A stretch of DNA of 64,000 bases, from positions 47,706 through 111,705 of the IMG/VR virus record IMGVR_UViG_3300043411_002995, one strand, 5' to 3'. The translations under genes were made by a program, and so were the position numbers. Shown piece after piece: positions 8,110 to 63,976 of the stretch. The stretch's first letter is position 1; every line of letters starts with the position of its first letter. The notes below the pieces were generated by a model. It saw only the letters and a list, made by a program, of their open reading frames with translations, did no database searches and was not told where the DNA came from. The DNA is from a virus.

Positions 8110-9006
8110 TCAGGTCAGCGTCATCTTGGCCGCGGCGCGCAGGTTGCCGTAGCCCATGCCGACGTACTCCCAGGTCTGCCACGACACCATGTCACCGCGC
8201 TTCTCGATGTAGAACTTGGTGTCGTTCAGGATGTAGAAGTTGCCGAGGTACTTCGGGTCCGTGAAGATGTACAGGGTGCCGGGCACCACGATCGACGACT
8301 TGATCGTCACCACCAGCTTGTGGCCGAGGATGGTGTTGTACTTGTAGCCGTTGACCAGGATCTCGCTGGCCAGCGGGGAGCCGATCACGGCGCCCTCCTG
8401 GGTCATGAAGTCGTCCCAGTCGGCCTTGTGCATCAGGATGGTGCCGACGGCGAGCTCGTCGGTGTCCAGCGCCTTGAAGAGCTTGACCAGGTTCTCGCTG
8501 GTCGCCGGGCCGGCGGCCGCGGGGGCGATGGTCTTGCCGTTCGCCGCGATCACCGCGTCGGTGAACTCGATGAACTTGCCGTCCTCGATCTTCTGGATGT
8601 CCTTGACCGAGTTCTCCTCGATGACCTTGGTCACCGGGTAGTCGTAGGCCAGGAGCTCCGCCTCGTTCTTCTTGAACTTGTCGGACTCGATCTTGAAGAA
8701 CGGGATCTCGTAGCGGTCGCTCTCGATGTACCGCTCGTGGGTCTTGCCCCGGAAGTTGACCGCGGCCGCCGAGCTCTGCGGCTCGATGTCGACGATCTTG
8801 ACCAGGGTGTCGTGGTTGACCGACCGCTGGCAGTCGGCCTTGGTGAGGTACTCCGGCGGCAGGATGCTGCGCACGAAGCTGACCTCGCGGAGGCGCTCGC
8901 GCACGAAGGCACCGCCGGCCTGGGCGGCCTTCTCGAGGCCGTCCGCCGTGTCCAGGCGCGAGACGAAGAGGTTGTTGAAGGTGGCCGCGTCGATCTGGGG
9001 GTCCAT
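8110..9006 (-). CDS. Major capsid protein
   Basis: The 298-residue product fits the HK97-like capsid layout: an N-terminal arm, a long helix region (about 45-120) and alternating strands and helices to the C-terminus. The C-terminal half has features typical of these proteins: a P-domain-like stretch (KADWDDFMTQEGAVIGSPLA), LGHKLVVTIKSSIVVPGTLYIF, and a final region with EKRGDMVSWQTWEYVG. It is flanked by small head-protein genes, with the protease a few genes upstream. Residues 24-28 read LEKAA, close to the KxA pattern of nearby proteins, so a short N-terminal propeptide may be removed. Near-capsomer stoichiometry would be expected. Confidence 0.85.
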   Translation of the reverse strand: MDPQIDAATFNNLFVSRLDTADGLEKAAQAGGAFVRERLREVSFVRSILPPEYLTKADCQRSVNHDTLVKIVDIEPQSSAAAVNFRGKTHERYIESDRYEIPFFKIESDKFKKNEAELLAYDYPVTKVIEENSVKDIQKIEDGKFIEFTDAVIAANGKTIAPAAAGPATSENLVKLFKALDTDELAVGTILMHKADWDDFMTQEGAVIGSPLASEILVNGYKYNTILGHKLVVTIKSSIVVPGTLYIFTDPKYLGNFYILNDTKFYIEKRGDMVSWQTWEYVGMGYGNLRAAAKMTLT

Positions 9007-21336: not shown

Positions 21337-21359
21337 CACTCCTCCTTTGCGGGCATAAG
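21337..21359 (+). promoter_or_regulatory. GGCATAAG promoter-like element 1
   Basis: CAC at 21337-21339, then 12 bases, then GGCATAAG at 21352-21359. It lies 22 bases before the ATG at 21382. The upstream half closely matches the copy at 46565 (CACTCnnCCTTT). It is one of six such plus-strand elements; see findings. Confidence 0.6.
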
Positions 21360-21798: not shown

Positions 21799-21821
21799 CA
21801 GGATCGCTCCGCGGGCATAAG
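21799..21821 (+). promoter_or_regulatory. GGCATAAG promoter-like element 2
   Basis: CAG at 21799-21801 then 12 bases and GGCATAAG at 21814-21821, 30 bases before ATG 21852. The CAC half is degenerate here (CAG), while the right half is exact. Confidence 0.55.
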
Positions 21822-22331: not shown

Positions 22332-22829
22332 ATGACGCCGTTCCTCCAGGCCTTCACCGATGAGCTGGTCAAGCTCGGCGCGGACAACGACCTGGTCGAC
22401 GTCTTCCGGGAGGCCAAGAAGGAGACCCGGAGGCAGCCGGCGCGGGACAGCGCCCTGAGCGCGCTGCGCGGGAACGGCACCCCGGTCAGCCGCAACTACC
22501 TCGCGTCGATGTTGATCGGCGGGATCTCGGTGCCGGCGGTGGCGGTCATGAGCAAGCGGATCTCGCGGGCCCTGAACAACAAGACCGTGCAGCGTGAGCT
22601 CCGCGGCCTTGGGCCGATGGCGCACCCGAAGAAGGTCCGGGCGCTGCGCGACGAGTTGCACACCGGCCCGTCGTTCGGGCGCGCGCGCCCCGGCACGCCG
22701 TTGAACACCCGGCCGCTCATCACGCACGGCGAGGCCGCCGGTCTTGCGGCGAGCGGCGTCGCGACCGGTGGCCTGGTGCAGATGATCCGGGACTACTTCG
22801 CGGGCAGCGCGCCGACGACCCCGCGCTAG
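22332..22829 (+). CDS. Plus-strand protein with N-terminal F-x-DEL motif
   Basis: The 165-residue product starts MTPFLQAFTDELVKLGADND, a clear copy of the targeting-like peptide, although it is on the opposite strand from most others. A charged helical region follows, then a hydrophobic stretch (ASMLIGGISVPAVAVMSKR) and a basic tail. The stop overlaps the convergent terminase stop by 4 bases. The motif on an independently transcribed gene argues that it is a protein-level signal and not a by-product of one gene cluster. Confidence 0.75.
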   Translation: MTPFLQAFTDELVKLGADNDLVDVFREAKKETRRQPARDSALSALRGNGTPVSRNYLASMLIGGISVPAVAVMSKRISRALNNKTVQRELRGLGPMAHPKKVRALRDELHTGPSFGRARPGTPLNTRPLITHGEAAGLAASGVATGGLVQMIRDYFAGSAPTTPR

Positions 22830-24601
22830 AAGCGGTTCGAGCTGATGTCGGCGGCGAGCTTGCAGTAGACCAGCGAGTGCAGCCCGTCGTCGGGCTGGTC
22901 GATCGGGTGGTCGTAGTTCATCGTGCGCGTGCGCTCGTTGTACTCGATGTACTCGGCGAGGATGTCCTTGCCGAAGGACTCGAACTCGGCCCACTCGGGG
23001 AGGATGAACTTCTTCTGCTTGAAGCCGAGGAAGGTGTCGGCGAGGACGGCGTTGCGGTTGATGATGAACTTGTGGGCCTCAGGGTCGTACTTCTTCCGCT
23101 CGCCGAGGCTGGTGGAGTAGGCGAACTGCATGACGCCGGTGCGGCCGCGGGCCTTGAAGAGGCGGCTGTTGACGCCCCAGCCGTGGCCCCAGTCGGCGCC
23201 GAGGACCTCGACACCCCAGTGGCCGCAGATGTTGAGCACGTCGGGGACGATGATCTCGGGATCGATGTCCTTGCCGGTGTAGCGCTTCCAGAGGAAGGGC
23301 CAGAAGAGCTCGTCGTTGACGTAGGCCCCGAGCGTGAGCACGGTCCACGACGCGAACTTCTTCCGCCCCTTCTCGGCCGAGCCCTCCTGGCGTCCTTCGC
23401 CCCAGTCGATCCCGCCGAAGATGCGGAGGCCGTGCATCTTCGAGTTCTTGGTGTGGATGATCTTGCGCGTCTCGCGCGTGGGGATCTGCTTGTCGGGGTA
23501 GCAGCACTTCTGCAGGTCCATCCGCGTCACGGGGGCGGACGCGGTGTCGTACGAGAAGCCGAGGATCTCGTTCTGGAACTTGTTCTCGGGCCACTTCTCG
23601 TAGGGGAGGACGATCTCCTTCCGCCAGGCGTTCTCCCCCTGCTTCCAGGGGACCATCAGCTGGGAGATGTGGTAGCCGACGTAGTACTCGCCGGGGCAGA
23701 AGGTGACCCACTGACCCTGGGAGGCGTCGAGGGCCTTGCCGCAGTTGGAGCAGATCAGGCCGGTCTTGCCGATGTTCCGCTCGTCGAGGAAGTTCCAGTA
23801 GCTCCCCGCCTCGCCGCTCTTGCAGTCGCAGGGGACGAGCCACTCGTTCTGCGTGGACCACTGCCAGTACTCCTCGAGGGTGTTGGAGTGGGTCAGCGGC
23901 GTGCCGGTGATCATCTCCGAGCCCTGGACGCCGGCGGAAAGCAACGAGGCCGACAGCGACTGGCTGATGACCTTGATGTTGTCCTTGAGCAAGTCCTGGG
24001 CTTCGTCGAAGAACACGCGCGACGCCGGGATGCCGCGGGCGCGGGCGGCGGTCAGGTACGCCGCGCGCAAGAAGATGTACGACCCGTTCATCAGGGTCTT
24101 CTCGAAGACCTGATCGATGACGCCCTTGCCGAGGTACAGGTTCTTCAGGAAGGGCGAGTCGTAGAGGGTCGGCCGCAGCTTCTCGTTCGAGTACTGCCGG
24201 GTCTGTTGGTGCGACGGCGAGACGTAGAGCGTGCGCCAGTGGGGGTGGAGCACGGCCTCGAGGATCTGGAGGCAGCAGACCGTCGTCGACTTCGCGACCT
24301 GGCGCGAGGTCTTCATGACCAGCTGGCTGTCCTGGTCGTTGTAGATCGGGATCAGGAAGGCGTGGTTGTCGAGCCGGAGCGGCTTGCCGAGGTGGTAGAG
24401 GATCGCCTGGGCGATGTCGGATCGGCGCCCGTGGAACGTGGGGATGCCGCCCTCGGACTTCGCGGCGAACTCCTTCAGCTGCGGCGCCCACTTGTAGGCC
24501 GCGTTCCAGTTGATGTCCCGGATCATCGCCGGGCGCGCTTCCCCCTTGCCCTCGAAGTCGAAGGGGTCGTCCTCGAGGACGCCATCGGCTTCGTCCAGCA
24601 C
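22826..24601 (-). CDS. terL: Terminase large subunit
   Basis: The 591-residue packaging motor ATPase-nuclease starts at GTG 24601 behind AAGGAG. It has a Walker A-like SRQVAKST (99-106), Walker B RVFFDE (195-200) and a C-terminal RNase H-like nuclease with GIDWGEG and GADWGHGWG acid clusters. A CxC...CxxC cluster (about 258-287) may bind zinc. The P-loop has Ala where T4-type terminases have Gly (SRQLGKTT-type), which is unusual and may be a sequence variant to check. It cuts concatemeric DNA and pumps it through the portal. The start overlaps the stop of the upstream gene. Confidence 0.9.
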   Translation of the reverse strand: MLDEADGVLEDDPFDFEGKGEARPAMIRDINWNAAYKWAPQLKEFAAKSEGGIPTFHGRRSDIAQAILYHLGKPLRLDNHAFLIPIYNDQDSQLVMKTSRQVAKSTTVCCLQILEAVLHPHWRTLYVSPSHQQTRQYSNEKLRPTLYDSPFLKNLYLGKGVIDQVFEKTLMNGSYIFLRAAYLTAARARGIPASRVFFDEAQDLLKDNIKVISQSLSASLLSAGVQGSEMITGTPLTHSNTLEEYWQWSTQNEWLVPCDCKSGEAGSYWNFLDERNIGKTGLICSNCGKALDASQGQWVTFCPGEYYVGYHISQLMVPWKQGENAWRKEIVLPYEKWPENKFQNEILGFSYDTASAPVTRMDLQKCCYPDKQIPTRETRKIIHTKNSKMHGLRIFGGIDWGEGRQEGSAEKGRKKFASWTVLTLGAYVNDELFWPFLWKRYTGKDIDPEIIVPDVLNICGHWGVEVLGADWGHGWGVNSRLFKARGRTGVMQFAYSTSLGERKKYDPEAHKFIINRNAVLADTFLGFKQKKFILPEWAEFESFGKDILAEYIEYNERTRTMNYDHPIDQPDDGLHSLVYCKLAADISSNRF

Positions 24602-25497
24602 TAGGACTCCTTCTTGTCGGCGGTCTTCTTCGTGGGAACCGCGACCTGGCCGGCCAGCTGCGCCAGGGAGATGTGGGAGGACTTCTCGGGCTTCACCGAG
24701 AAGAGCCCCTGGAAGTCGGCGGTGCTGGGGGTGCCGTCGCTCTTCGGCACGCCGAGCCCGGCGGTCTTCTTGACGCTGAGCGCGCGCAGGGTGAGCTCGG
24801 CCCACCGCATGGCGCCAGCGAGCTCGGGTTGGGGGGTGTCCATCGCCAGCTTGAACTGCTGGTACGTCTTGTTGATGATCGTGTTGACGATCTGCTCGTC
24901 GCTGTGGACCGACGCGACGCCGAGCATGTCCCGCACCTCCTCCGCGGTGGGCGAGGCGACGCCGAAGGCGACGTAGCTGCGCTCCTCCTGGGAGATGAGC
25001 TTCTTGTAGAAGTCGTCCCAGGCCTTGCGGCTGAGCAGCTTGACGTCCCAGTAGATGTGCCGGTAGGTGCTCAGGGCGTCGTTGCTGAGCTCGATCCCGT
25101 AGTGCTCGAAGAGGAGCTTCTGGATCTCGCCGGCGCTGGCGCGCGAGAGCAGCAGGCAGCCCAGGATGGCGCGCGTGTGGACGTTCGTGAAGAGCCGGAA
25201 GGCCAGGTCGGCGTGGGGCGGCGCGGCCGCGCGGCCGAACTCGCGCTGCATCCGCCAGAGGTCACCGACGCCCTCGGCGTCGGCCCAGGCGAGCACTCCC
25301 TCCAGGTCGGTGATCTCGGTGTCGGTGCCGTCGATGAACGCGCCGACCGACGTCGGCGCGGTGTCGCGGAGGTGCTGGCGGCAGTCGGCGAGCCACAGGT
25401 CGCCGACGCGCGGCAGCTCGTAGCGCTCAAGCGTCGAGTTGATCTCGATCTTGCGCGAGACGAGGAACCGGAGGAATCGCTCGTAGGGGTACCTCAC
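24601..25497 (-). CDS. Putative small terminase subunit or packaging partner
   Basis: The 298-residue product starts at GTG 25497. It lies directly upstream of the terminase, the usual place for a DNA-recognition subunit. The centre has a helix-turn-helix-like stretch (KLLFEHYGIELSNDALSTYR), and the C-terminal tail is basic and disordered with KKTADKKES, ending in the terminase start overlap. The length is above the common 140-190 residues of TerS. The assignment is by context and one weak motif, so it remains tentative. Confidence 0.55.
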   Translation of the reverse strand: MRYPYERFLRFLVSRKIEINSTLERYELPRVGDLWLADCRQHLRDTAPTSVGAFIDGTDTEITDLEGVLAWADAEGVGDLWRMQREFGRAAAPPHADLAFRLFTNVHTRAILGCLLLSRASAGEIQKLLFEHYGIELSNDALSTYRHIYWDVKLLSRKAWDDFYKKLISQEERSYVAFGVASPTAEEVRDMLGVASVHSDEQIVNTIINKTYQQFKLAMDTPQPELAGAMRWAELTLRALSVKKTAGLGVPKSDGTPSTADFQGLFSVKPEKSSHISLAQLAGQVAVPTKKTADKKES

Positions 25498-30767: not shown

Positions 30768-31869
30768 AGCCTGAGGGCGTCGCGAGCCGCGAGCCGCGAG
30801 CCGGGTTGTAGAGCGACTCGACCATGTCCTTGTAGAAGGCGGTCTTGCTCGGCGGCTTCGCCTGGGCGCGCTCCTTCGCCGGCCCGCCGACCTGCCCAGG
30901 ACCGATGCTCTTCGGCTTGGGCGGGCTGGTCCCCATGCGCCAGGCCGAGCTCGCGCTCGAGCGCAAGGCCCCCGGTGCCTTGACCTCGGCGCCGGCCGCC
31001 GCCGCCCCGAGCTTCTCCTCCTGCGCTTCGAGCTCGCCCGCCCGCCGCTTCGCCGCCGCCCCTTCCCTCAGCGCCTCGACCAGCCGCTTGGCCAGGATGG
31101 TCGCCAGGACCGGCGCCGCCGCCGCCGCGACGTAGGTGCCGAAGGACGGGGCGAGCTCCTTCAGTGCGCGCATGGTGCCGTAGCCGCTGTGGCGAGCCCC
31201 CTGCAACGCCTTGTAGGACGCCCGCGCCTCCTCGATGAGTTCGGGGGCGGTGGTGGCGGCCACCAGCGCGGGGGCGTGGTCGTAGACGAACCGCCGGACC
31301 CGCTCCCCCTCCTGGGGCTCCGAGATCGTGCTGGCCGCGAGCCCCGCCCGAACCAGGTGGCCGATGGTGGACCCCGTGCCGAGCGTCTTGCCCATCGACT
31401 GGAGGGCCCGCCGCAGGTCGTGGCTGCCGGCGATCGGCGAGGCGTGGCCGATCTCGTGGAACGCCTGTGGGACCGACGACCGGTTGAGCCCGATGTGGGG
31501 GGTGACGTCGCCGACGGGCTCGCCGGCGATGCGCATGAGCAGGCTGCGGAGCGGGCCGGGGCGGTCCATGAAGTAGCCGGACTCGAACCCCGGCCCACCG
31601 GCGATGATGGGGACGGTGACGCCGCTCTTGCGGGCGAAGTCGGCGATTGCCTCCGCCTCGGCGCGCGTGAACTTCGAGAGCCGCTTCAGCGGCGTGCCGG
31701 TGTCGTCGTCGAGCGGCACGCCGGACATGAGCAGCTTCGCGAGCCCGTGCGGAGCGTCGCTCGTGAGCGGAGAGATCACGCGAGGAAGCCCTTCGTACGC
31801 GGCCGCGGCCGCGAGCGCTGGCGCGACGCCGAGCCCCCCACCGTCTTCCTGGTCCCGATCGTCGGACAT
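30766..31869 (-). CDS. HEIGH metallopeptidase-like protein
   Basis: The 367-residue product carries HEIGH at 138-142 within PQAFHEIGHASPIAGSH, a zinc-metallopeptidase-type helix. The N-terminal region is Ala/Leu-rich, and the second half holds a long Ala-rich helical region (about 235-300) and a Lys/Pro-rich tail. It is encoded directly after the RNA polymerase gene, sharing the TAG/ATG region. It resembles the HELGH protein at 17089-18576 in layout. Substrate unknown. Confidence 0.68.
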   Translation of the reverse strand: MSDDRDQEDGGGLGVAPALAAAAAYEGLPRVISPLTSDAPHGLAKLLMSGVPLDDDTGTPLKRLSKFTRAEAEAIADFARKSGVTVPIIAGGPGFESGYFMDRPGPLRSLLMRIAGEPVGDVTPHIGLNRSSVPQAFHEIGHASPIAGSHDLRRALQSMGKTLGTGSTIGHLVRAGLAASTISEPQEGERVRRFVYDHAPALVAATTAPELIEEARASYKALQGARHSGYGTMRALKELAPSFGTYVAAAAAPVLATILAKRLVEALREGAAAKRRAGELEAQEEKLGAAAAGAEVKAPGALRSSASSAWRMGTSPPKPKSIGPGQVGGPAKERAQAKPPSKTAFYKDMVESLYNPARGSRLATPSG

Positions 31870-34800
31870 CAGTAGACGCCTTCCTTCCTGGAACGACCCT
31901 GCGGGGCATCACCGAACTCGGCGCCGTAGGCGAAGGCCGGGACCGGTGAGTACCCGTGGAGGTCTGACTCGCTCATGGTGGCAGCGCCTTCGATGAGGCC
32001 CCTGGCCAGCTCACGATACCCCATCTGCCCCATCCAGTCGTCGCGGAGGAGGGGTACCCGCTGGATGCCGGCGAGGAAGGGTTCGTGGACGACCCGCTTC
32101 GGGCCCACGCCGATCGTCTTCTTCCCGCGGCGCTCCAAGACCGCCTTCATCGTCTCGTCGAAGGTCTCGCCCTTGGTAGCGCCGGGCACATCGTCCTCGT
32201 GCACGACATGCCCGACGGCTTCCTCGAGAGGCAGGTCACCGACCTTCTTGTTGTTGTAGTCGTTGACGACGGTCCACGACGCCACGTCACCCGGCAGGTA
32301 GGGGCCATCGCCAGGATCCAACACCCGCGTGGTGTTCCCCGCCGCGCGCACGACGGTCTCGATCGCCCGCCGCTTCAGCTTCACACCCTGGCCGTCGAAG
32401 GCCTTGTGGATCTCCTCGACGACGTAGTTCATCGCAGGGAGCATGCCCTTGAGGCGAACGAGGTCCTGCGGCTGCGCGATGCCCTTCGACAGGATGTCAC
32501 CACGCTTCACCTCGGACCCGACCCGGACGCGATCGCTGTCCCAGAGCCCCTGCTCGACGAAGACCGGCTCCTTCGAACCGCGGATGAAGATGTTCGTGCC
32601 GCCGCCGCCGGGCACGTCCTCGATCCGGTCGACCTTGCCGTCGGCCTCGGCCAAGGCCGCGCGGCCGCGCTTGATCTGGTGCAGCTTGAAGAGCTTGTCG
32701 ATCGCGGCGTACCCATCGAGGACGCCGCGCGTGCCCGAGACGCCGCCCTGGTGGAAGGTGCGCATCGTCATCTGGGTCAGCGGCTCGGACATCGCCTGAC
32801 CGGAGATCGCCCCGACGTTGTCGCCGATCGCCGGCAGCTTGCCGTTCTCGGTGATGCCGTAGCTCTTGGCGCTGATGCCGTGGGGCGTCGGGTCGGTCAA
32901 CGGCGACATCACCCACAGCGTCTTCTGCTTGCGGTCGCGCAGGGTGTTCAGCAGCGCCGCGGTGACCTGGTCGCCGGCGTGGGCGATGACCGTCCCGCCG
33001 ATGCGGATGTCCTTCGACAGGAAGCGGTCCTCGAGGTCGTTCGACCGGTTGTCGACCGGCAGCTCGATGCCTTCCTGCGGCCCCGAGTCGTGCCGCGAGA
33101 CCACCTGGGTCACCGAGGTGGCCATGATGTCCTTGTTGAAGGCGCCGGGCTCGGAGGTCTGCATCTGCTTGTCCACCGCGGCGGCCCGCGCGCCGTAGAG
33201 GGTCGCCCAGTAGTCGGACAGCGGCAGCCCCTCGGCGAACGAGCGCATCACCGGCGCGAGCTGGGCGTTGCCCCGGTGGTCGTCGACCATGAACGGCGCC
33301 GAGACGATCTGCTTGAGCTGGTTGCGGTTGCCGCGCGCGCCCGACCGCACCATCAGGTCGAAGTTGTTGTCCTGCTCGGGCAGGCGGACCTTGAGCATCG
33401 CGTTGAGCTCGTCGTTGGCCGCCGAGATGAGCTGCTCGCCGCTCGCACGCCCCTCGGGGGTGTCGAGCTTCAGCCCCAAGAGCCCCTTCCGGGTGCGCTC
33501 GAAGATCGCCTTCTTCTCGGGCAGGTCGGGGAGCAGGTCCTTCAGGCTCACGGTGAACCCGGTCTTGTAGGTGTGGAGGTCCCCCATCTTCTTGAGCTTG
33601 TCGACGACCCCGCCGTGGTCCTTCGGCAGCACGCGCGCGAGGTCGCGCATCAGCTCGTCGAGCCCCTTGCTGTCGAGCTCGCGGTCCGCGAACTTCGTCT
33701 GCAGCTCGGGTGGCAGCACCTGCAGCAACTCGGGCTTGTACTTCGGGTCGCGCGACATCTGGTACAGCCCCAGCGCCGCCTCGTTCTGCGGCTTGATCAT
33801 GATGCCGCCGGTGCCCGGGTTGAAGAGGTTCCGCGACGGCATCATCCGGTACGCCTCCTCGATCGCGTCCTCGAGGATGGGCACGTGGACGTTCATGGCG
33901 TCGCCGTCGAAGTCGGCGTTGAAGCCCTTCACGACGAGCGGCGGGATCTTGATCGCCCTCCCATCGGTCATCTGCGGCGTGAAGCCCATCACCGAGAACT
34001 TGTGGAGCGAGGGGGCGCGGTTGAGCAGCACCGGGCGCGAGGCCATCTCGGCCTGCAGCGCCGATAGCGCGATGGGGGATCGCTTGTCGATCTCCTCCTC
34101 CGCGGCGAGCGGCTTCATGCCCGAGTGGTTCACCAAGCGCCGGGTCACGAACGGGCGGAAGAGCGTCCAGGACATCTCCTCGGGGAGTCCGACCTCGTCG
34201 ACGCCGAGCTTGGGCTCGGGGATGATGGTGCCGCGGCCGACCAGGTTCTGTCGCCGGCGCAGCACCTCGTACTGGAAGTAGCCGGTCTTCGCCGGCTTGC
34301 CCTTGACCTGCTCGAGCACGCCCTTGGGCCGGCGGGCCTCGGGGTAGAAGGCGATCGGCTTGCCGATGCCCGAGAGCGCCTGCATGCCCTTGTAGAGGTC
34401 CTCGCGGAGCGGCGCGCTCACCGAGTCGGGGATGAACGGGATGTCGTTCTGCCACTTCAGCTCGTTGTTCACGAGCGCAAGGTCGCGGTAGAGCGTGTTG
34501 AGCCCGGGCGTCGACAACGACCCATCCTCCATCTCGACGACGGGGCGGAAGTTGGGGGGGATGACGGGGAGCTTCGTCTGGACGTAGGCGTCCTCGGGGC
34601 GGATCTTGAGCTTCTTGAGCGCGGAGAGGTACTTCAGGCTCTTGTTCGCCTTGTCGAGCTCCTCGGGGGTCCGTGCCTGCTTGGCCTCCTCGGTCCACTG
34701 GGAGATCTGGTCGTCGACGTTGATCTTGCCGAGCAGCGCCTTCACGGCGGCGCCGCTGGTGACGGTGACGGGATCCTTCTCGTCGCCGAACTCCCCGGTC

Positions 34801-37800
34801 TCGGGGTTCACCCAGAGCTTGCCGGTGACCAGGCCACTGAACTGCTGCTCGTTGAGCCCGGTGAGCTGTCGGATCGGCTTCTCGAAGATGGGGTTCGGGA
34901 CGGGCTCGGCCAGATCGATGTGCCCCCAGCGGTCGCCCTTGCGGCCGCCGAAGACCGTGCGGTCGAGCAACCCGCCGCGCTCCTCCTTCAGGTCCTTGGC
35001 GTTGACGAAGACCGGATCGACGACCGCGCCGTTGCTGATCTTGTCGACGTCGGCGTCCGTCATCGGCTGCAGGACCATCTTCGAGCCGTTCCGCTTCACG
35101 TTGATGCCGGCGGCCTGGAGGTAGCCCTCGAACTTCTTGTAGGCGAAGGTCGGGGTCGGCGGCGGCTTCATCAGCCCTGAGCCGGCGCCGCCGGCGAGCC
35201 AGGTCCAGAACGGCTCGTTCTTGGACGCCTTGTAGGTCGCCATCTCGCGCAGGTTCGCGCGCGCGCCATGCGACAGCATCGAGTAGAAGGTGATGAGGTC
35301 GAGCGCCTTGGCGCCTTCCTCGCCGCCGCTCACGGGGTTCCCGTTGGAGTCGTACTTGCCCTCGCCGCGCGCCGAGTACTGGGTAGTCGCCTGCTTTCCG
35401 AGCTTCAGGATGTACTGCGGCCCGGTCATGACCTGCCCCAACGCCTCCTTGCTGTGGGGGTCGTAGAGCGTCTCGGTGTCGGAGACGCCGGCCTTGGCCA
35501 GCTCGTCGCTGACCCGCTGGGCGTACCCGTCCTTGCTCGTGATCGCGTTGTCGACGATGTAGGGCTTGCCCCGGTGCTCGGCGAGCTTGGCGGCCGCCGT
35601 CTCGAGCATCTGGGACGGGTTCACGCGGCTGGTGATGCCGTGCGGGTTGAGGAGGATATCGATCGGCTCGTGCGTGCCGTCGGGCTTGATCGAGTACGGC
35701 GCCTCCGCATCCTCGATGATCTTCGTGATGATGCCCTTGCCGCCGTGACGGTTCGTGACCTTGTCGCCGATCTGCGCTGGCTCGCGCGTGCGGACGTAGA
35801 CCTTCACCTTCTTGCCCGTGCGGACGACGTCGACGACCTCGCCGTCGTAGTCCTCGGTCCACTCCTCGGCGACCCCCCGCTTCGGGGGCATGTTGGCGCC
35901 GAGGCGACGCATCGCGAGGTAGTCGGGGTCGTTCTTGTTGTCCTTGGTGCCGACCCAGAGCGGGTCGCCCTTGCGGACGATCTGTCCCTTCCGGATGACC
36001 CCATCCTTGTCGAGCTTGGCCGAGGTCTCGTCGTCGATCGCCCCGGGCTTCCACGCCCGGTACTGGTCGAGCGAGAGGGTCGTCTGCTCGTTGAGCATCG
36101 TCGAGTACTGGTGCATGTGCTCGCTGGTGAGCTTTTTGCGCGCGCTCTCGGTGATGACGATGCCGTCCTCGAAGTTGTAGCCCTTCCAGGGGATGTAGGC
36201 GGCCTTGAGGTTGGTGCCGATCGCCATCACCCCGTCGGAGGTGAAGTTGGTGTCGGCCAGGGTCTCGCCCTTCTTGACGGCCTGCCCCTCGACCACGCGC
36301 ACCGTCGAGTCGACGAACGCCTTGTTGTTCAGCGGGAGGTTGCTGAACAGCGGATGCTCGTTCTCGCCGTCCTTGGTCTTGACCACGATCTTGTTCTTCG
36401 AGATCGACTGGACGACGCCGTCCTCGAGGGCGGCGGTGGAGAAACTCCCGCCGATCGCCCGCTCGATCGTGCCGCCCCCGACCTTCACCTGCACGAGCGG
36501 CGCCTCGCGGTTGACCAGCGGGATCGCCTGCTCGAGCATCTTGGTCGCCATCTGCGCCCGGACGCCCATGGCGGCGGGCAAGAAGGGGATGGTGTTCGAG
36601 GCGATCGAGAAGGCCTGCCGTGGTGAGTGCAGCACCACGTCGACCTGGTCGGCATCGACCAGCCGGCGCTCCCCGTTGACGTGGGCCAGCACCTTCTTGT
36701 CGATCGCCACGCCGTCCTCGAACTGGTCGGAGAAGGAGAGCGTGAGGTTCGCGGCCTCGGCCGCGGTGATCTTCCGGTTCTTCTTCGTCTTGACGTCGTA
36801 GACGGTGGTCTCGAGCTCGTCGCCGCGCTTGCTCACGCCCACCGGCAGGTGCATCGTCAGGCCGATGTGGCCGGAGTCGGGCGTGTGGATCGGATCGATG
36901 AACCCGAGCTGCGACGGGTGGACGGCGCGCTCCTCCGCCCGGACGTTCTGCGCGTTGGACCCCGCGCCGCCCTCGCCCATGATGGTGACCTTGGTCATCC
37001 CGTTGAGCATGTGGATCGGGTTCGTCTGATCGGGCACGTGGGCGTGCCCGCCGGTCTGCGTGAAGAACGACGAGAGCGTCGAGGAGAGCTGGTTCGAGCT
37101 CACGAGCTGCCCGACCTGCGTCGGGGGCTGCCGCTGGTTGTTCAGCTTCCGCAGGATCTTCCTGCGGTACTCGTTGAGGAACGGCTGGATCTCGCCGTTG
37201 TCCTTGACGAGACGCTCGCGCATCAGGTCCGAGACGGACATGATCTTCTTGAACTCGAGGGACTGGCGATCGTCGGGCGCCCGCTTCCCAGCGGCGGCGG
37301 CGATCAGCTCCTTGGAGCTGGCGACGATGGCCTCGGGGGAGACCTTGTCGAAGGCCTGGCCCACCGTCTTCTTGGTGACCTCGGGGCGGAGCTCGGTCTG
37401 GTCGAAGTAGGCCAGGAGCGCCTTGCCGGCCTCGTCAGGCGTCTCGAACCGCGGGCGCGTGTCACCCGCCCGCAGCCGCTTCAGGTCGGCGGCCTTGTCG
37501 GCGGCGAAGTACTCGGCGGCCTTCTTGACGGACTCGTTCGCCTTCTTCTTCGAGGCGGCCTTGTTCGCGCTGAGGATCTGGTCGCCCCAGGCCCGCGCCA
37601 GGGTTGAGTCGGCCACGCCCATGGCCGAGAGGATGGGGTAGAGCGCCGGGCCGCTCTTGTCCTCGGCGCCGCCGGCGCGGCGGGCGAGGCGGAAGACCGT
37701 GGAGGCGGGGTTGAACTCGACGTCGAAGGCGCGGCCGGCGACGTTGATCTCGGCCTTCGTCTCGCCGTTCTTCTTCTCGGTGACGTAGATGCCCGGCTTG

Positions 37801-38162
37801 CGGCGCAGCTGGCTCTGCACCTGGTAGTGCTTGCCGTCGACGATGAAACTGCCGAAGTTGGTGGCCTTGGGCAGGGTCGCGATCTTCATGCGCTTCTGCG
37901 TGGAGATCACCTTCCCGGTCTTGCGGTCGGTGAGCTCGAGGTTCGCGTAGACCGGGACGCCCCAGGTCTTGTCCTTCCGCACGGCCTCGCGCTGGCCCTC
38001 GGCGTCCCCGGGATCAGCCGAGTCGTCGACCCAGACCTCCTTGGCCCGGAGGCGGAGGCCGGTCTGCTCGGCCTGGACGTCGAGGGCCTTGGTGAAGGCC
38101 TCCGCGATGTCCTTCTTCACCTTCTCGAACTGGCTCTGGTAGTCGAAGCTCTCCATGGTCAC
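31869..38162 (-). CDS. Fused RNA polymerase beta/beta-prime subunit
   Basis: This 2097-codon frame encodes both catalytic subunits of a bacterial-type RNA polymerase in one chain. Beta features: FGSFIVDGKHYQVQSQLRRK, NVRAEERAVHPSQLGFIDPI, PWKGYNFEDGIVITESA, and the GDKVTNRHGGKG motif (about 799). Beta-prime features: WGHIDLAEPVPNPIFE, LLNRAPSLHKFSVMGF, the catalytic NADFDGD (about 1415), SGARGNRNQLKQI, and the C-terminal QMTMRTFHQGGVSG (about 1790). Bacterial beta plus beta-prime exceed 2700 residues, so insertions and the beta-prime zinc-ribbon cysteines are missing. The start may be GTG 38162 or ATG 38156. No alpha or omega subunit was recognised. Confidence 0.95.
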   Translation of the reverse strand: MTMESFDYQSQFEKVKKDIAEAFTKALDVQAEQTGLRLRAKEVWVDDSADPGDAEGQREAVRKDKTWGVPVYANLELTDRKTGKVISTQKRMKIATLPKATNFGSFIVDGKHYQVQSQLRRKPGIYVTEKKNGETKAEINVAGRAFDVEFNPASTVFRLARRAGGAEDKSGPALYPILSAMGVADSTLARAWGDQILSANKAASKKKANESVKKAAEYFAADKAADLKRLRAGDTRPRFETPDEAGKALLAYFDQTELRPEVTKKTVGQAFDKVSPEAIVASSKELIAAAAGKRAPDDRQSLEFKKIMSVSDLMRERLVKDNGEIQPFLNEYRRKILRKLNNQRQPPTQVGQLVSSNQLSSTLSSFFTQTGGHAHVPDQTNPIHMLNGMTKVTIMGEGGAGSNAQNVRAEERAVHPSQLGFIDPIHTPDSGHIGLTMHLPVGVSKRGDELETTVYDVKTKKNRKITAAEAANLTLSFSDQFEDGVAIDKKVLAHVNGERRLVDADQVDVVLHSPRQAFSIASNTIPFLPAAMGVRAQMATKMLEQAIPLVNREAPLVQVKVGGGTIERAIGGSFSTAALEDGVVQSISKNKIVVKTKDGENEHPLFSNLPLNNKAFVDSTVRVVEGQAVKKGETLADTNFTSDGVMAIGTNLKAAYIPWKGYNFEDGIVITESARKKLTSEHMHQYSTMLNEQTTLSLDQYRAWKPGAIDDETSAKLDKDGVIRKGQIVRKGDPLWVGTKDNKNDPDYLAMRRLGANMPPKRGVAEEWTEDYDGEVVDVVRTGKKVKVYVRTREPAQIGDKVTNRHGGKGIITKIIEDAEAPYSIKPDGTHEPIDILLNPHGITSRVNPSQMLETAAAKLAEHRGKPYIVDNAITSKDGYAQRVSDELAKAGVSDTETLYDPHSKEALGQVMTGPQYILKLGKQATTQYSARGEGKYDSNGNPVSGGEEGAKALDLITFYSMLSHGARANLREMATYKASKNEPFWTWLAGGAGSGLMKPPPTPTFAYKKFEGYLQAAGINVKRNGSKMVLQPMTDADVDKISNGAVVDPVFVNAKDLKEERGGLLDRTVFGGRKGDRWGHIDLAEPVPNPIFEKPIRQLTGLNEQQFSGLVTGKLWVNPETGEFGDEKDPVTVTSGAAVKALLGKINVDDQISQWTEEAKQARTPEELDKANKSLKYLSALKKLKIRPEDAYVQTKLPVIPPNFRPVVEMEDGSLSTPGLNTLYRDLALVNNELKWQNDIPFIPDSVSAPLREDLYKGMQALSGIGKPIAFYPEARRPKGVLEQVKGKPAKTGYFQYEVLRRRQNLVGRGTIIPEPKLGVDEVGLPEEMSWTLFRPFVTRRLVNHSGMKPLAAEEEIDKRSPIALSALQAEMASRPVLLNRAPSLHKFSVMGFTPQMTDGRAIKIPPLVVKGFNADFDGDAMNVHVPILEDAIEEAYRMMPSRNLFNPGTGGIMIKPQNEAALGLYQMSRDPKYKPELLQVLPPELQTKFADRELDSKGLDELMRDLARVLPKDHGGVVDKLKKMGDLHTYKTGFTVSLKDLLPDLPEKKAIFERTRKGLLGLKLDTPEGRASGEQLISAANDELNAMLKVRLPEQDNNFDLMVRSGARGNRNQLKQIVSAPFMVDDHRGNAQLAPVMRSFAEGLPLSDYWATLYGARAAAVDKQMQTSEPGAFNKDIMATSVTQVVSRHDSGPQEGIELPVDNRSNDLEDRFLSKDIRIGGTVIAHAGDQVTAALLNTLRDRKQKTLWVMSPLTDPTPHGISAKSYGITENGKLPAIGDNVGAISGQAMSEPLTQMTMRTFHQGGVSGTRGVLDGYAAIDKLFKLHQIKRGRAALAEADGKVDRIEDVPGGGGTNIFIRGSKEPVFVEQGLWDSDRVRVGSEVKRGDILSKGIAQPQDLVRLKGMLPAMNYVVEEIHKAFDGQGVKLKRRAIETVVRAAGNTTRVLDPGDGPYLPGDVASWTVVNDYNNKKVGDLPLEEAVGHVVHEDDVPGATKGETFDETMKAVLERRGKKTIGVGPKRVVHEPFLAGIQRVPLLRDDWMGQMGYRELARGLIEGAATMSESDLHGYSPVPAFAYGAEFGDAPQGRSRKEGVY

Positions 38163-38182
38163 CTGGTGCCGTCGGGCATAAG
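38160..38182 (+). promoter_or_regulatory. GGCATAAG promoter-like element 4
   Basis: CAC at 38160-38162, 12 bases, then GGCATAAG at 38175-38182. The CAC overlaps the GTG start of the polymerase gene on the other strand. It is followed by AGGAGGG and small plus-strand frames. Confidence 0.5.
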
Positions 38183-40434: not shown

Positions 40435-40732
40435 CGGAGTCTCCTCTGGTACGGGAAGGGGTCTTGGCCCAGTAGTGAACGAGGAGGATGATCTCCTCGG
40501 TCGTCGTGCTGATGTTGCTCCCGCCCTCCATCGTCTCGGTGATGGTCTTCTTGCGAGAGTACTCCTTGATCATGTCGACCTTGATCCCTTCGGAGAGGTC
40601 GTTCATCCGGTTGCGGAGCTCCGCGTAGGCCTCGCGATCCCCCTGCTCGAAGAGGTTGAACTCCTCGCAGTAGAACGTCCCGAGGTTGCGCCCGCCGACG
40701 CCGCCGAAGTTGACGGGGGTAGCCTTCGCCAT
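40388..40732 (-). CDS. Small protein between portal and lysis genes
   Basis: The 114-residue product begins with a Gly-rich segment (ATPVNFGGVGGRNLGTFYCE), has a charged helical centre and a hydrophobic strand (TTTEEIILLVHYWAK), and ends with an acidic/basic tail. It starts at ATG 40732, overlapping the portal stop, and its 3' end overlaps the holin-like gene by 46 bases. The family is not recognised; virion association is possible. Confidence 0.65.
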   Translation of the reverse strand: MAKATPVNFGGVGGRNLGTFYCEEFNLFEQGDREAYAELRNRMNDLSEGIKVDMIKEYSRKKTITETMEGGSNISTTTEEIILLVHYWAKTPSRTRGDSDEDDEEDRRRIAPAG

Positions 40733-42765
40733 CAGATCGGCCCTCCGTCACGCCGCGGAGGCGCCGCCTGGGGCAGTGGCTTCTGCTGGTCGGCGACGTC
40801 GCCGGCGGTGGCGCCGGGCGCCATCTGGGACAGGAGCTGCTCGACCAGGCGGGCCATGTTGGGCATCTTCGCGCGCAGCTCGTTGAGGACCTGGACGCGC
40901 TGGCCCTGGTCCATCTTGGAGATCTTGTTGGCCCACTGCTTGGCGACCCGGGCCGCATCGAGCTGCACGACCTGGCCGCCCTGGCCGCCCACGTCCGTCC
41001 CGCCGGCTTGAGTCCCCGCCTCGCCGGCGACGGCCGCCTGCTGCTGGGATGCCTGTTGCTGGGCCGCCTGCTGCGCCATCTGCTGGTCCTGGGCCATCTG
41101 CTCGGGCCCTGCGGCAGGCGCCGGCGCGCCGCCCATGGCCGGGTCCTGGGCCTGCCCTGGAGGCAACGCGCCCTGAGGCCCGGCGTTGCCCTGCTGCTCG
41201 TTCTGGGCCTGCCCCTCCATGCCCGGCTGTCCGCCGGCGGACGCGCCCTGGGCCTCCGCGAAGGCTTCCTGGGCGCGGGCCTGGTAGCGGGCCTGGACGA
41301 TCGACGACTCTCCCTGGGCCTCGGTCTGGGCCTTCATGGTGATCGCCTGGATGCGGTTCCGCTGCTCCGCCTCCTTCTCGATCATGTTGAGCTCGTCGTC
41401 GTAGTCGAACCCGAGCTCGGTGAGCATCGTGTGGTCCGAGATCTTGTTGGCAGCGTTCAGCTGGATGACGATCTGCTTGCGCTGGATGTCGTCCGCCATC
41501 TTGAACTCGGTGAACCCGATGACGACATCGGGCATCCCGAGGTAGAGGCGCACGCGGTTCTTCGCCCAGTTGACGAAGCGCAGCAGCAGCCGGCGGTACA
41601 AGAGGAAGTGGTTCTCGAGGGTGCGCAGCGAGACGGAGCTGCCCGACCACGAGAGGCCGCCGAAGACGAACTCGAGCGGCACGCCCATGCCGCCGGTGAT
41701 CTCCTTGTTCGTCACCTCGATCTCGGGCCCAAGGAGTAGGGCCCGGCCGTCGCCGCCCAAGCGCTCGAACCCGAGCGGTACAGCGACGACCGAGACGTAG
41801 TTCGGGTCGATGCGCCACTTGCGGATCTCCTCCTGCACCGTGCCCTGCCACGTGGACAGGTTGACGTGCTGGTAGGGGTCCTGCTGGGCGTTCGCCTGGG
41901 GGAAGATGAACTCGAGCGGGAGGATGCGCTGCAGCGCGATCGCCTCCTGCGCGCGGCGCAGGACGTAGAGGTAGAACATCCGCCCCATCGAGTGGATGAT
42001 CAGCGGCTTGCCCCACCCCATGTCCTGCTCGGCCAAGGTCGGGCGCTTGAAGTGGAAGAGGTTCTGGTCCGAGAGCGCGACGTCGCGGCTCAGCTTCAGC
42101 GCCAACAGGAAGACCGCGGGGATGTCGACCAAGATCTCGCGCGACCCTTCCTGGATCGCCTTGCGGATCTTGTTCGGGATCTTGTAGCGGTACTTCGACC
42201 GCCCCGTGATCGGGTTGTAGTGGATGTCGATGTTCTTCGGGTCCCACCGAACGAAGTTGATGCCGGTCCGGTCCTTGATCGGCCTGTCGACGATCTCCCC
42301 GACGACCTCGGCGCGGCAGGCCTGGCAACCGTAGTGGAACTGGAAGTTGCGGAACTTGTAGCTGAACGACTCGTCGGAGAGTCGAGCCATCGACTTGCAG
42401 GCTGGGCAGCGCAGCCACCGCACGAACGGCAGGTTCATCGAGATGAACGCGTTGCCGTAGCAGAAGTAGTCGAGGCCGATCTCGATCAGGAAGGGCTTGA
42501 GGTTGAGCTCGTCCTCGAGGAGGGTCTTCCACCCGTCACGGACGTGCTTCTCGTCGGCGTTGTAGACGAAGTCCGTGACCGGGTACTCGGCGATCTTGGT
42601 GACCACCGACCCGATCATCGGGTCCTTGTAGAAGAAGTACTGGCACCACCGGAAGAGCTCCTTCACGGTCGGCGGCATGTACGTCTGCGCGATGTCGAAG
42701 AACGGGGACGGGTACACCGTCCCCCGTCGCCGATCGAGTCGCCCTTGGAACATGCCGTCGGACAT
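40732..42765 (-). CDS. Portal protein with zinc-ribbon insertion and Gln-rich tail
   Basis: The 677-residue product has portal-like layout: a wing domain, a long alpha/beta core and a stem-like helix region (ENHFLLYRRLLLRFVNWAKN), followed by a beta segment and long helices. CPACKSMA (about 119) and GCQACRAEVV (about 145) form two Cys pairs that probably bind zinc within the wing. The C-terminal 150 residues are a Gln/Ala/Gly-rich low-complexity tail. The dodecameric portal is the DNA gateway of the head. It lies downstream of three head-region genes. Confidence 0.82.
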   Translation of the reverse strand: MSDGMFQGRLDRRRGTVYPSPFFDIAQTYMPPTVKELFRWCQYFFYKDPMIGSVVTKIAEYPVTDFVYNADEKHVRDGWKTLLEDELNLKPFLIEIGLDYFCYGNAFISMNLPFVRWLRCPACKSMARLSDESFSYKFRNFQFHYGCQACRAEVVGEIVDRPIKDRTGINFVRWDPKNIDIHYNPITGRSKYRYKIPNKIRKAIQEGSREILVDIPAVFLLALKLSRDVALSDQNLFHFKRPTLAEQDMGWGKPLIIHSMGRMFYLYVLRRAQEAIALQRILPLEFIFPQANAQQDPYQHVNLSTWQGTVQEEIRKWRIDPNYVSVVAVPLGFERLGGDGRALLLGPEIEVTNKEITGGMGVPLEFVFGGLSWSGSSVSLRTLENHFLLYRRLLLRFVNWAKNRVRLYLGMPDVVIGFTEFKMADDIQRKQIVIQLNAANKISDHTMLTELGFDYDDELNMIEKEAEQRNRIQAITMKAQTEAQGESSIVQARYQARAQEAFAEAQGASAGGQPGMEGQAQNEQQGNAGPQGALPPGQAQDPAMGGAPAPAAGPEQMAQDQQMAQQAAQQQASQQQAAVAGEAGTQAGGTDVGGQGGQVVQLDAARVAKQWANKISKMDQGQRVQVLNELRAKMPNMARLVEQLLSQMAPGATAGDVADQQKPLPQAAPPRRDGGPI

Positions 42766-45349: not shown

Positions 45350-46495
45350 CTACGCCTCGCCGGAGATGACCTGCTTGATCAGCGCCTTCTCGGGGGCCGG
45401 GAGCGACTCGTAGATCTCGACCGGGTTGGCCGCGAACTGGCTGGCGAAGCTCGACCCCATGTAGCCGGCGATCTTCTTCTGGACAGCCTCCTTGCGCAGG
45501 TCGGCCTCGGTGATCGTCATCCCGTCGACCTCGTCGGACCACCCCTCGGCGACCTTGCCCATGGTGCTGGCATAAGGGTCGCTGAGCCCCCGATCGTAGT
45601 ACCGCGACAGCCCGGTCGCGGCGTCGATGGCCTGGAGGGCTGCTGCAGCGTCCTCCGGGCTGGTCTCCCCCAGGGAGGCCGCCAGCTTGTCGAGGACCGA
45701 CCGAGCGTCCTGGTTGCGAGGAAGGAGGGACTTGCGCTGCTCGATGTGGGCCAGCACGTGGCGGTTCCAGCCCGGCGACGCCCACTTCTCGAGGAGGTCG
45801 TGACCGGAGACGTCCACCTCGAGCTCGGCCGCGCGGGCCTGCACGTTGCGCGCGAACTGGTGACGGTGCGGAGGCGAGAGGTCCATGGCGTACTTGTCGA
45901 AATACTCGGCCGCCACCTTCACGTACTCGGCCGTCGGCATCGCGTACTTGCGCAGGATGGTCCCGTCCTCCGAGCGCACCACGAGCCCCCAGTGCTCGTT
46001 GGGCAGGTTGACGAAGGCCTCGATCTCCGCGGCCTGGGCCTGCTTCTCGATGAACTCGCGCTCGGCGAGCTTGCGCAGCATCCACCCAGTCTCCGATCCC
46101 TCGACGAAGGTGTTGCTCGTCGCCTCGTCATCACCCACCCGCGCCGCGTACGCGGCCACCATCTTCGAGTTCGGCACCCCGTACGCGTCGCATGCGGTCT
46201 TGATGAACTTGGCGGCGATGAACCTCGCCGGCCAGGCCAGCTTCTCGTGCGTCGCCTGGAAGTACTGGGCGCTCAACCAGGCGTTGCCCGGGTCGTTCAC
46301 CGGGTAGCGCCGCATCACCGCCGCGCGCTTGGTCAGGACGATCAAGCCGAAGTCGGTGTCCGGCAACGCGGCGTGCTGGTCCGCCGTCAAGACCGTGGTC
46401 TGCGCGCGCGCGATCGCGGCAGGCATGGCGATCTTGCTCATCAACTCGTGCTTGCTGTCGTCGTAGAAGTCGAGGACCGCGGCTGCGATGGTCAT
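45350..46495 (-). CDS. Protein with two copies of an L-P-D/N-x-x-F-G-L domain
   Basis: The 381-residue product contains two related units: LPDTDFGLIVLTKRAAVMRR with YPVNDPGNAW (about 44-75), and LPNEHWGLVVRSEDGTILRK with YAMPTAEYVK (about 165-195), each followed by a helical segment. This resembles a small domain family of phage proteins with a conserved RKYP motif. The N-terminus reads FYDDSKHELMSKIAMPA, close to the KxA motif pattern. It is the first gene behind a TTGACC-N16-GATACC element. Function unknown. Confidence 0.68.
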   Translation of the reverse strand: MTIAAAVLDFYDDSKHELMSKIAMPAAIARAQTTVLTADQHAALPDTDFGLIVLTKRAAVMRRYPVNDPGNAWLSAQYFQATHEKLAWPARFIAAKFIKTACDAYGVPNSKMVAAYAARVGDDEATSNTFVEGSETGWMLRKLAEREFIEKQAQAAEIEAFVNLPNEHWGLVVRSEDGTILRKYAMPTAEYVKVAAEYFDKYAMDLSPPHRHQFARNVQARAAELEVDVSGHDLLEKWASPGWNRHVLAHIEQRKSLLPRNQDARSVLDKLAASLGETSPEDAAAALQAIDAATGLSRYYDRGLSDPYASTMGKVAEGWSDEVDGMTITEADLRKEAVQKKIAGYMGSSFASQFAANPVEIYESLPAPEKALIKQVISGEA

Positions 46496-46525
46496 TCTGA
46501 TCGCCTTTCCCTGCGCAGCAGGAAC

Positions 46526-46553
46526 GGTATCACGCGCCTCGAAGGGGGGTCAA
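46526..46553 (-). promoter_or_regulatory. Putative minus-strand promoter TTGACC-N16-GATACC
   Basis: On the minus strand TTGACC (46553-46548) and GATACC (46531-46526) are 16 bases apart, 30 bases upstream of ATG 46495. It matches the elements at 20623 and 8062 and probably starts the portal/lysis block. The rest of the 46496-46685 gap holds the plus-strand element and no convincing gene. Confidence 0.5.
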
Positions 46554-46564
46554 CGCAGGGGAAC

Positions 46565-46587
46565 CACTCGACCTTTCCAGGCATAAG
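46565..46587 (+). promoter_or_regulatory. GGCATAAG promoter-like element 6
   Basis: CAC at 46565-46567, 12 bases, then GGCATAAG at 46580-46587. The upstream half (CACTCGACCTTT) matches the copy at 21337 very closely. The next gene starts 98 bases downstream, after a 20-codon frame of doubtful meaning (46625-46687). Confidence 0.58.
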
Positions 46588-62577: not shown

Positions 62578-63426
62578 CTACCAGAACCTGTCGACCTTCT
62601 TCTTGATCTGACTCTTCAGGGAGCGGATCTTCTGCGGCGACAGGTTGAGCTGCTGGGCGAGCGCCAGGTCGTCCTCGATGACCGGCTTGCCGAAGCCCTC
62701 GAAGGTGTGCTCGAGCACGAGCTGCTGTTCGGGGTTCAAGGACCCGTGGAGGAAGACGATCTGGCGCCGGAGCTTGCTGTCCGCATCCACCTCAACCGCG
62801 CCGCCAGCCATCTCGGTGGTGAGATCCTGGCGCAGCTCCTTCCGCAGCGTGCCCACGACCTTCGGCGTGATCCTGTTGTTCTTGAGGTTCGCGGTGTCCT
62901 GCGCCGAGAGGAGCATGTCGTCGGCGAGCTCGGTGTCGGTGGGCACGCGCCCGAGCTTCTCCTTGAGCTCGTTCTCGCGCTGCTGCAGGAGGCCGATCAG
63001 GCCGGCACGCTCTTCGGGGATGCGGCCGACGTTCGTGTAGCGCTGCAGGTACCGACCGGTGCGGCCGACGCCGTTGTAGACGTGCGAGCTGAACTTGGTC
63101 CCGAAGGAGGGGTCGAAGGTCTTGAGCGCCTCCACGTAGCCGCGCAGCAGGCTGCCCTTCACCGCGCTCTTGGGCACCTGCGCCGAGCTGATGTACCGAT
63201 TGCCGGCGGCGTTGATCAGCGGCTGGTGCTTGTTGTACAGCCACTCGAAGTCCTCGGGGTTCGGCGTCTCCTGCCAGCGCTTGATGACCTCGGCCTCGCC
63301 GGCGTAGAGGTCGTTCGGGTCCAGCCCCTGCTCGAGCGCCTCCTTGACGAGCCACGCCGCGAGCTCAGCGTCGACATCGAAGTCGGCGCTCGGGTCGGTG
63401 TGCTCTTGCTCATCCAGTGAAGCCAC
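62578..63426 (-). CDS. Phage sigma-70-family-like factor
   Basis: GTG 63426 has GAGG upstream and overlaps the stop of the gene to its right. The 282-residue product has sigma-like parts: a region 2-type segment LYNKHQPLINAAGNRYIS (63-80), SLLRGYVEALKTFDPSFGTK (92-111) and FSSHVYNGVGRTGRYLQRY (112-130); a region 3-type ELKEKLGRVPTDTELADDM (153-171); and a region 4-type NPEQQLVLEHTFEG...ALAQQLNLSPQKIRSLKSQIKKK. The tryptophan pair usual in region 2.3 is absent. It may direct the phage or host polymerase to phage promoters. Confidence 0.8.
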   Translation of the reverse strand: MASLDEQEHTDPSADFDVDAELAAWLVKEALEQGLDPNDLYAGEAEVIKRWQETPNPEDFEWLYNKHQPLINAAGNRYISSAQVPKSAVKGSLLRGYVEALKTFDPSFGTKFSSHVYNGVGRTGRYLQRYTNVGRIPEERAGLIGLLQQRENELKEKLGRVPTDTELADDMLLSAQDTANLKNNRITPKVVGTLRKELRQDLTTEMAGGAVEVDADSKLRRQIVFLHGSLNPEQQLVLEHTFEGFGKPVIEDDLALAQQLNLSPQKIRSLKSQIKKKVDRFW

Positions 63427-63976
63427 GGGTCCTCGCCAGCTCTTCGCGGTAAGCGTCGATGATCGCCCGGCGCAGGTCAACGACCTGCTTCTCCGACAGC
63501 GGCTGGGGCAGCGCGTGGCGCTCCTCCTGCTCCAGGCCATCGCCGGTTGGCGCCTGCACCTTGGTCGGCATCGAGGTGGTCTTGCGCGCGCGGGCGTCGT
63601 GGCGCCCCTTCTTCTTGCGCGCGTCCTCGTCCTTCTTCCGGGCCTCGATGTCGTCCTTGCGCTTCTGCGCCGACGCCGCACGCTCCTCGGCCGTCTTCGG
63701 TCGGACGATGTTCCCCTTGGGGTCCTCGAGGAAGTAGTCCGACGCCTCCGCGTTCTCCTCGATCTTCCCCCCCGTGGGGGCGAAGCCGGCGTCGCGCAGC
63801 GACTGCTGCCAGAGCCGGAACTCGAAGTCGAACATCAGGGGGCGGCCGTCGTACCGCGCCCGATCGGACAGCGCCCGTTCGGCCCCGCTCTTGATCAGCG
63901 CGTCGCGGGTCTTCTTGTCCGTCGCCTCCTTCCCCGTGTGGATCTTCGTGTCGAAGACCGGGAAGGCTCCGGCCAT
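63410..63976 (-). CDS. Charged helical protein upstream of the sigma-like gene
   Basis: The 188-residue product contains YDGRPLMFDFEFRLWQQSLR in its ordered N-terminal half, a Lys/Glu/Ala-rich low-complexity middle (EERAASAQKRKDDIEARKKD) and a short helical C-terminus (KQVVDLRRAIIDAYREELAR). Its end overlaps the start of the sigma-like gene by 17 bases. It could be a partner or cofactor of that gene, but no family is recognised. The ribosome site at ATG 63976 is weak. Confidence 0.62.
   Translation of the reverse strand: MAGAFPVFDTKIHTGKEATDKKTRDALIKSGAERALSDRARYDGRPLMFDFEFRLWQQSLRDAGFAPTGGKIEENAEASDYFLEDPKGNIVRPKTAEERAASAQKRKDDIEARKKDEDARKKKGRHDARARKTTSMPTKVQAPTGDGLEQEERHALPQPLSEKQVVDLRRAIIDAYREELARTRGFTG

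Follow-up and report, generated by a model that had tools for sequence, protein, structure and literature searches.

The window analysed here, a stretch of 64,000 nucleotides, belongs to an IMG/VR virus record of 111,705 bases. On its minus strand, which carries all window features given below, lies a gene that encodes the beta and beta-prime subunits of a bacterial-type RNA polymerase (RNAP) as a single-chain core of 2097 amino acids (31869..38162). It is probable (about 0.78) that this predicted protein is the working DNA-dependent RNAP core of a contractile-tailed phage of the mReC type, including the use of sigma and promoter proposed below. Judged from its sequence the single-chain, sigma-equipped core looks active, and we infer its partners and promoter.

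Bacterial-type RNAPs normally contain at least five chains and are assembled on an alpha dimer, and the fused core with its sigma may be among the simplest bacterial-type transcription machines. If core and sigma suffice on their own, a large and widespread phage clade would possess a two-component transcription system of bacterial fold. A one-chain core that retains the bacterial fold and has its own sigma would allow direct tests of how small a sigma-dependent polymerase can be, and would offer an enzyme that can be expressed from one gene for structural and synthetic work.

The polymerase gene and its junction

Read from 38162 to 31869 on the minus strand, the gene comprises 2097 codons with no internal stop; the plus-strand translation of the same interval is interrupted by stops. 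The ORF begins with GTG, and an ATG two codons further in is the likelier start. At the other end the stop codon shares bases with the ATG start codon of the following gene (31869), an operon-like arrangement. The hallmark motifs GDKVTNRHGGKG, NADFDGD and QMTMRTFHQGG begin in that order at residues 799, 1415 and 1797. Pfam places Rpb2 domains 3 (residues 377-439) and 6 (581-938) ahead of Rpb1 domains 1, 2, 4 and 5 (within residues 1148-1824) in the same chain, and the top NCBIfam matches include models of beta/beta-prime fusions, at 462 bits against a cut-off of 5372. The open frame, the ordered motifs and the succession of Rpb2 and Rpb1 domains bear out the in-frame phage fusion proposed in the preliminary description.

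The contig is metagenomic, and an assembly or frame error might in principle join two separate genes; no tool result favours this. The fusion is a single ORF in most of the 35 loci from our first scan. A profile scan of IMG/VR relatives gave at least 432 related stretches, and in 75 of the best 80 of these independently assembled relatives a single ORF spans nearly the whole query, so the fusion is due neither to chance nor to faulty assembly. The frame is intact in many contigs and the junction is the same in all 88 aligned fusions, leaving the artefact, raised beforehand as a possible objection, with a practically negligible probability.

The 88 fusions in the alignment have identities down to about 31% and a median length of 2089 amino acids. 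The junction lies at residues 1017-1036 (35055..35114) and contains no added linker; this span of 20 residues has the same length in every one of them. Set against the E. coli proteins, the chain has only a few residues in place of the end of beta (its final few residues) and the first 20 or so of beta-prime. The simplest reading of so constant a junction would be one ancestral joining event.

A scan of 84,980 prokaryote species genomes had no cellular genome with the same enzyme within its best 80 matches, all of which were ordinary beta and beta-prime. A Woesebacteria assembly has one beta/beta-prime ORF of 2362 amino acids (L162:7725-14810) that retains the zinc ribbon, and is probably a separate cellular fusion. 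Other peculiarities were seen among the phage relatives. A related phage contig of 205 kb (L105:8487-13952) contains in-frame TGA codons where relatives have tryptophan (GKTWGVPVY, GDWRKTSPMG and NDEYWRNLQ), and this phage probably recodes TGA as Trp. The RNAP genes of L018, L016, L122 and L026 carry LAGLIDADG inserts, most with intein-splicing matches and some near the catalytic barrels.

Fold, catalytic residues and zinc sites

The beta part (residues ~1-1022; 35097..38162), delineated by Pfam Rpb2_3 and Rpb2_6 and by AlphaFold, comprises protrusion/lobe, fork, double-psi barrel, flap and a C-terminal clamp segment. The beta-prime part (residues ~1023-2097; 31872..35096), delineated by Pfam Rpb1_1/2/4/5, AlphaFold and alignment to E. 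coli, continues with clamp helices, lid, rudder, double-psi barrel, bridge helix, trigger loop and a C-terminal switch segment. Relative to E. coli RpoB and RpoC, the fork, flap, lid, clamp helices, rudder position, bridge helix, trigger loop and C-terminal switch segment are all retained. AlphaFold was run on two halves separately. Residues 1-1040 gave a pLDDT of 78 and a pTM of 0.73, with Thermus RpoB as the closest PDB match (E 8e-63). Residues 960-2097 gave a pLDDT of 73 with a low pTM of 0.47, and the domain arrangement of this half is unreliable; its closest PDB matches are bacterial RpoC (E 1e-59). Structure prediction had been suggested as a check on the fusion, and run in this form it yields folds that match bacterial RpoB and RpoC.

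Alignment places the catalytic residues where they are expected in a bacterial enzyme. The beta active-site lysines of GDKVTNRHGGKG (35733..35768) correspond to E. coli K1065 and K1073, and the Mg-binding aspartates lie in the catalytic NADFDGD (33900..33920). The bridge helix SDYWATLYGARAAAVDKQMQTSEPG is encoded at 33144..33218 and the trigger loop QMTMRTFHQGG at 32742..32774. DFDGD and both active-site lysines of the double-psi barrels are invariant in the 88 aligned fusions; the bridge-helix arginine is likewise kept in all 88, and the trigger-loop histidine in 87. Essential barrel or bridge-helix elements might have been missing, but the trigger loop, the bridge helix and both barrels are present.

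The beta-prime N-terminal zinc ribbon is absent, and its place of deletion (E. coli residues 70-88) falls at 34917..34952. There is no cysteine at this place in any of the 88 aligned fusions, so that the loss of ribbon cysteines noticed earlier in this one protein holds for all of them. At the second zinc site, formed in E. coli by C814/C888/C895/C898, 81 of the 88 fusions have all four cysteines; the window protein reads S/D/S/S there. Three of the cysteines have become D, S and S in the aligned remnant at 32862..32894, and the fourth position is serine 1693 (33084-33086). All four cysteines are lost together in the window protein, L016, L064, L106 and L113, and one each is lost in L062 and L104. 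Such a pattern would be expected from loss of a metal site.

The inserts SI1, SI2 and SI3 of the E. coli enzyme, which are lineage-specific, are absent from the window protein when it is aligned to E. coli RpoB and RpoC. The chain is shorter than bacterial beta plus beta-prime, as the preliminary description stated, but part of the difference is simply the absence of these inserts. The leanest cellular pair compared (L142) totals 2390 amino acids; the chain is thus truly, though moderately, shorter, by about 290 residues.

Phage context, partners and promoter

The RNAP gene sits in a structural cluster, with genes on the same strand around it for tail sheath (1828..4653; PHROG 279, E 3.2e-9), major head protein (8110..9006; PHROG 2522, E 1.2e-15), terminase large subunit (22826..24805; PHROG 675, E 1.9e-51) and, upstream of it, portal protein (40732..42765; PHROG 64, E 2e-7). 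Since these genes surround the polymerase, we assign the virus as a contractile-tailed phage. Most genes in the left 48 kb of the record (G000:C1:1-47706) are on the plus strand, whereas in the right part the minus strand carries most of them; the two arms thus converge.

Alpha and omega were sought in 25 phage records: besides the window contig, these were 20 contigs with lengths of 131-202 kb, two close relatives of lesser length, and the genomes of Vibrio phage D69 and Salmonella phage Arash. Neither subunit was found in any of the 25, while the same searches were positive in 13 of 14 control genomes for alpha (RpoA) and in all 14 for omega; the earlier failure to recognise an alpha subunit in the window is in this way borne out. 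Alpha or omega could come from the host, or exist in diverged form. A small ORF directly upstream of the RNAP gene was considered as a conserved extra subunit and rejected, being present only in D69 and Arash.

A factor of the sigma-70 family is encoded at 62578..63681, with its homologous part at 62581-63414 (PHROG 351, E 9.5e-9; SigA profile match). The window protein alone is under the Pfam cut-off. A profile built from ten members of its family matches regions 2-4 of SigA in the PDB (E 1.7e-17), and among these ten members Pfam finds region 3 in nine, region 2 in two and region 4 in three. Relatives of this sigma are present in 25 of 35 genomes with the RNAP, and in most large contigs the family tracks the fused polymerase; they were not found in the other 10 RNAP-bearing records, several of which are short. 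Another sigma, of the PF04542 type, occurs in some of the genomes with the RNAP. Jumbo phages with phiKZ-type RNAPs have been reported to be without recognisable sigma factors (PMC7598289; review PMC13282480), and the co-occurrence of RNAP and sigma is therefore unusual. D69 and Arash (L040 and L041) each have two sigma-like genes besides the polymerase, and in Cobetia phage Carin-5, whose two-gene RNAP is more distant, a sigma is also annotated next to the polymerase.

A short sequence element is a candidate promoter. The element CTTATGCCCG immediately precedes the RNAP gene (38173..38182), with further exact copies at 21350-21359 and 21812-21821; these three copies compare with 0.05 expected in the window. 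Its exact copies, strand bias and recurrence in relatives make it a candidate phage promoter or leader element. A blind k-mer search of the contig for promoters gave nothing clearly over shuffles; the motif CTTATGCC was spotted by eye in its output and then tested. It occurs nine times in the contig, always on the strand of the polymerase; one copy in the window falls within a coding region. Over the ten closest contigs all 46 copies are on the polymerase strand, against 11 occurrences on either strand for a reversed control pattern. Because most genes in these contigs run on that strand, and orthologous sites are not independent of one another, the strand bias alone is no proof of a promoter. 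Aligned sites, which were chosen to hold the core, have TTC upstream of CTTATGCC and GTG 12 bases downstream. The motif or a one-base variant precedes the RNAP gene in the window, in L001-L004 and in L045-L048, and the strand-specific CTTATGCC-N12-GTG sites of the window, preceded by TTC, are those at 38173-38182, 21812-21821, 21350-21359 and 46580-46587. This arrangement may be a phage promoter, or an element acting at the level of RNA. Just downstream of the last site (~46500-46560), before the gene at 45350-46495, is a sigma-70-like promoter sequence TTGACC-N15/16-GATACCGT, which is also seen in L004 at ~1900-1950; two types of promoter may control this gene.

In the mechanism that we propose, covalent joining would stand in for alpha-directed assembly, so that the chain would fold as a crab claw free of alpha and omega. 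The phage sigma would bind this core at the clamp helices and the flap tip that it has kept, and direct it to phage promoters, possibly CTTATGCC-N12-GTG, and the core would then transcribe middle or late phage genes, the structural ones included. In its strongest form, one polypeptide and one phage sigma would make up a complete promoter-specific RNAP of bacterial type that reads TTC-N6-CTTATGCC-N12-GTG and dispenses with alpha, omega and, in this phage, both structural zinc sites. We offer this complete version as possible rather than probable.

The fused RNAP might instead be packaged in the virion and injected for transcription of the early genes, with the phage sigma later reprogramming the host RNAP. 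The gene does belong to the structural cluster, with portal and terminase nearby, the order portal-small ORF-RNAP recurs in the annotated phage Arash, and jumbo phages provide known cases of virion RNAPs (PMC7598289). Yet position in a late cluster is no proof of packaging, annotations near the gene in D69 and Arash name no virion RNAP, and the phiKZ-type phages that have virion RNAPs are without recognisable sigma (PMC7598289), unlike the present clade. We therefore regard packaging as unlikely.

We hold it doubtful, too, that the sigma-like protein serves the host RNAP only, and that promoters are recognised by the core's own domains or by another phage specificity subunit, as with gp226 of AR9. 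The AR9 nvRNAP subunit has no sequence similarity to sigma (PMC9209446), and 10 of the 35 related records yielded no sigma; against this stand the tracking of the fused polymerase by the sigma family in most large contigs, and the clamp helices and flap kept in the chain. A hybrid enzyme, made up of the fused chain together with alpha and omega from the host, would accord with the failure to find these subunits in the 25 phage records and with the need of cellular cores for alpha. It is nevertheless improbable, since the phiKZ and AR9 RNAPs function without alpha or omega (PMC7598289, PMC9209446) and fusion makes the assembly of subunits unnecessary.

Relation to known polymerases

The clade is most probably the published mReC lineage of phage polymerases (Weinheimer & Aylward 2020, PMC7481178). 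The mReC sequences are from metagenomic Caudovirales, and have bacterial-like beta and beta-prime that lie apart from cellular RNAPs and are encoded near capsid, terminase and portal genes (PMC7481178). The window contig similarly pairs beta/beta-prime homologues with Caudovirales hallmarks (terminase, portal, sheath and head protein), and one relative (L084) comes from metagenome 3300017989, which is also the source of mReC1 and mReC3. The main text of the mReC paper treats beta and beta-prime as subunits, in contrast to the fusion found here, names a fusion only for crAssphage, and has no mention of alpha or sigma (PMC7481178). In the literature searched, which for the mReC paper means its main text, we found no published report of fusion in this clade. 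Of the novelty suggested in the preliminary description, the unusual one-chain core stands; the architecture is not isolated, and belongs to a large phage clade that is almost certainly mReC. What is new is that, across a broad clade of phages, a bacterial-like core without alpha consists of one chain and co-occurs with a sigma.

In our trees, whose cellular members are 8-16 bacteria, the phage RNAPs are separate from these bacteria, with bootstrap support of 84% for all phage RNAPs and 61% for the clade itself. Among isolates, Salmonella phage Arash and Vibrio phage D69 (GenBank OQ632216, OZ195729) have the related enzyme at ~30% identity over the full length, and sigma genes in the genome. 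They differ in that beta and the first part of beta-prime form a chain of ~1525 amino acids, with the rest in a separate gene of 606-609 amino acids. The same break in beta-prime is found in L014, L023 and L026, and L023 is also broken between beta and beta-prime. In D69 and Arash the break follows the active-site barrel, which is the split site of phiKZ-type and cyanobacterial beta-prime (PMC7598289). Split and fused forms group together with 61% bootstrap, and the split forms among themselves with 99%; the split lineage is nested in a fast tree but sister in the bootstrapped tree, with 42% support. Fusion and splitting of beta-prime inside one phage clade bear on the origin of the split phiKZ-type enzymes.

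Like the window RNAP, the polymerases of the phiKZ and AR9 jumbo phages are phage-encoded, related to beta/beta-prime and without alpha or omega (PMC7598289, PMC9209446). They consist, however, of four or five chains and have no recognisable sigma, whereas here there is one chain and a sigma-70-like gene in the contig; the AR9/phiKZ nvRNAP has no rudder, and in the window protein both lid and rudder positions are filled (PMC7598289, PMC9209446 for the jumbo phages). Fusion of the large subunits is known in some bacteria (NCBIfam fusion models), in linear plasmids of plants and fungi (PMC7281927) and in divergent phage enzymes (PMC10770324). The Helicobacter and Wolbachia fusions (NCBIfam PRK09603, PRK14844) also have beta followed by beta-prime in one chain, but these are cellular enzymes with models of 2839-2890 positions, and the window RNAP scores below 10% of their cut-offs. 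Both barrels are likewise on one polypeptide in crAss-like gp66, P23-45 gp64/gp96, YonO and QDE-1, which are highly divergent, whereas the window RNAP is clearly bacterial-like throughout; the crAssphage RNAP has no match to the mReC beta/beta-prime HMMs (PMC7481178). In one split relative the separate gene for the C-terminal part of beta-prime (L014:18342-22532) itself carries a further half of ~750 amino acids with acylphosphatase-like and P-loop (AAA) matches.
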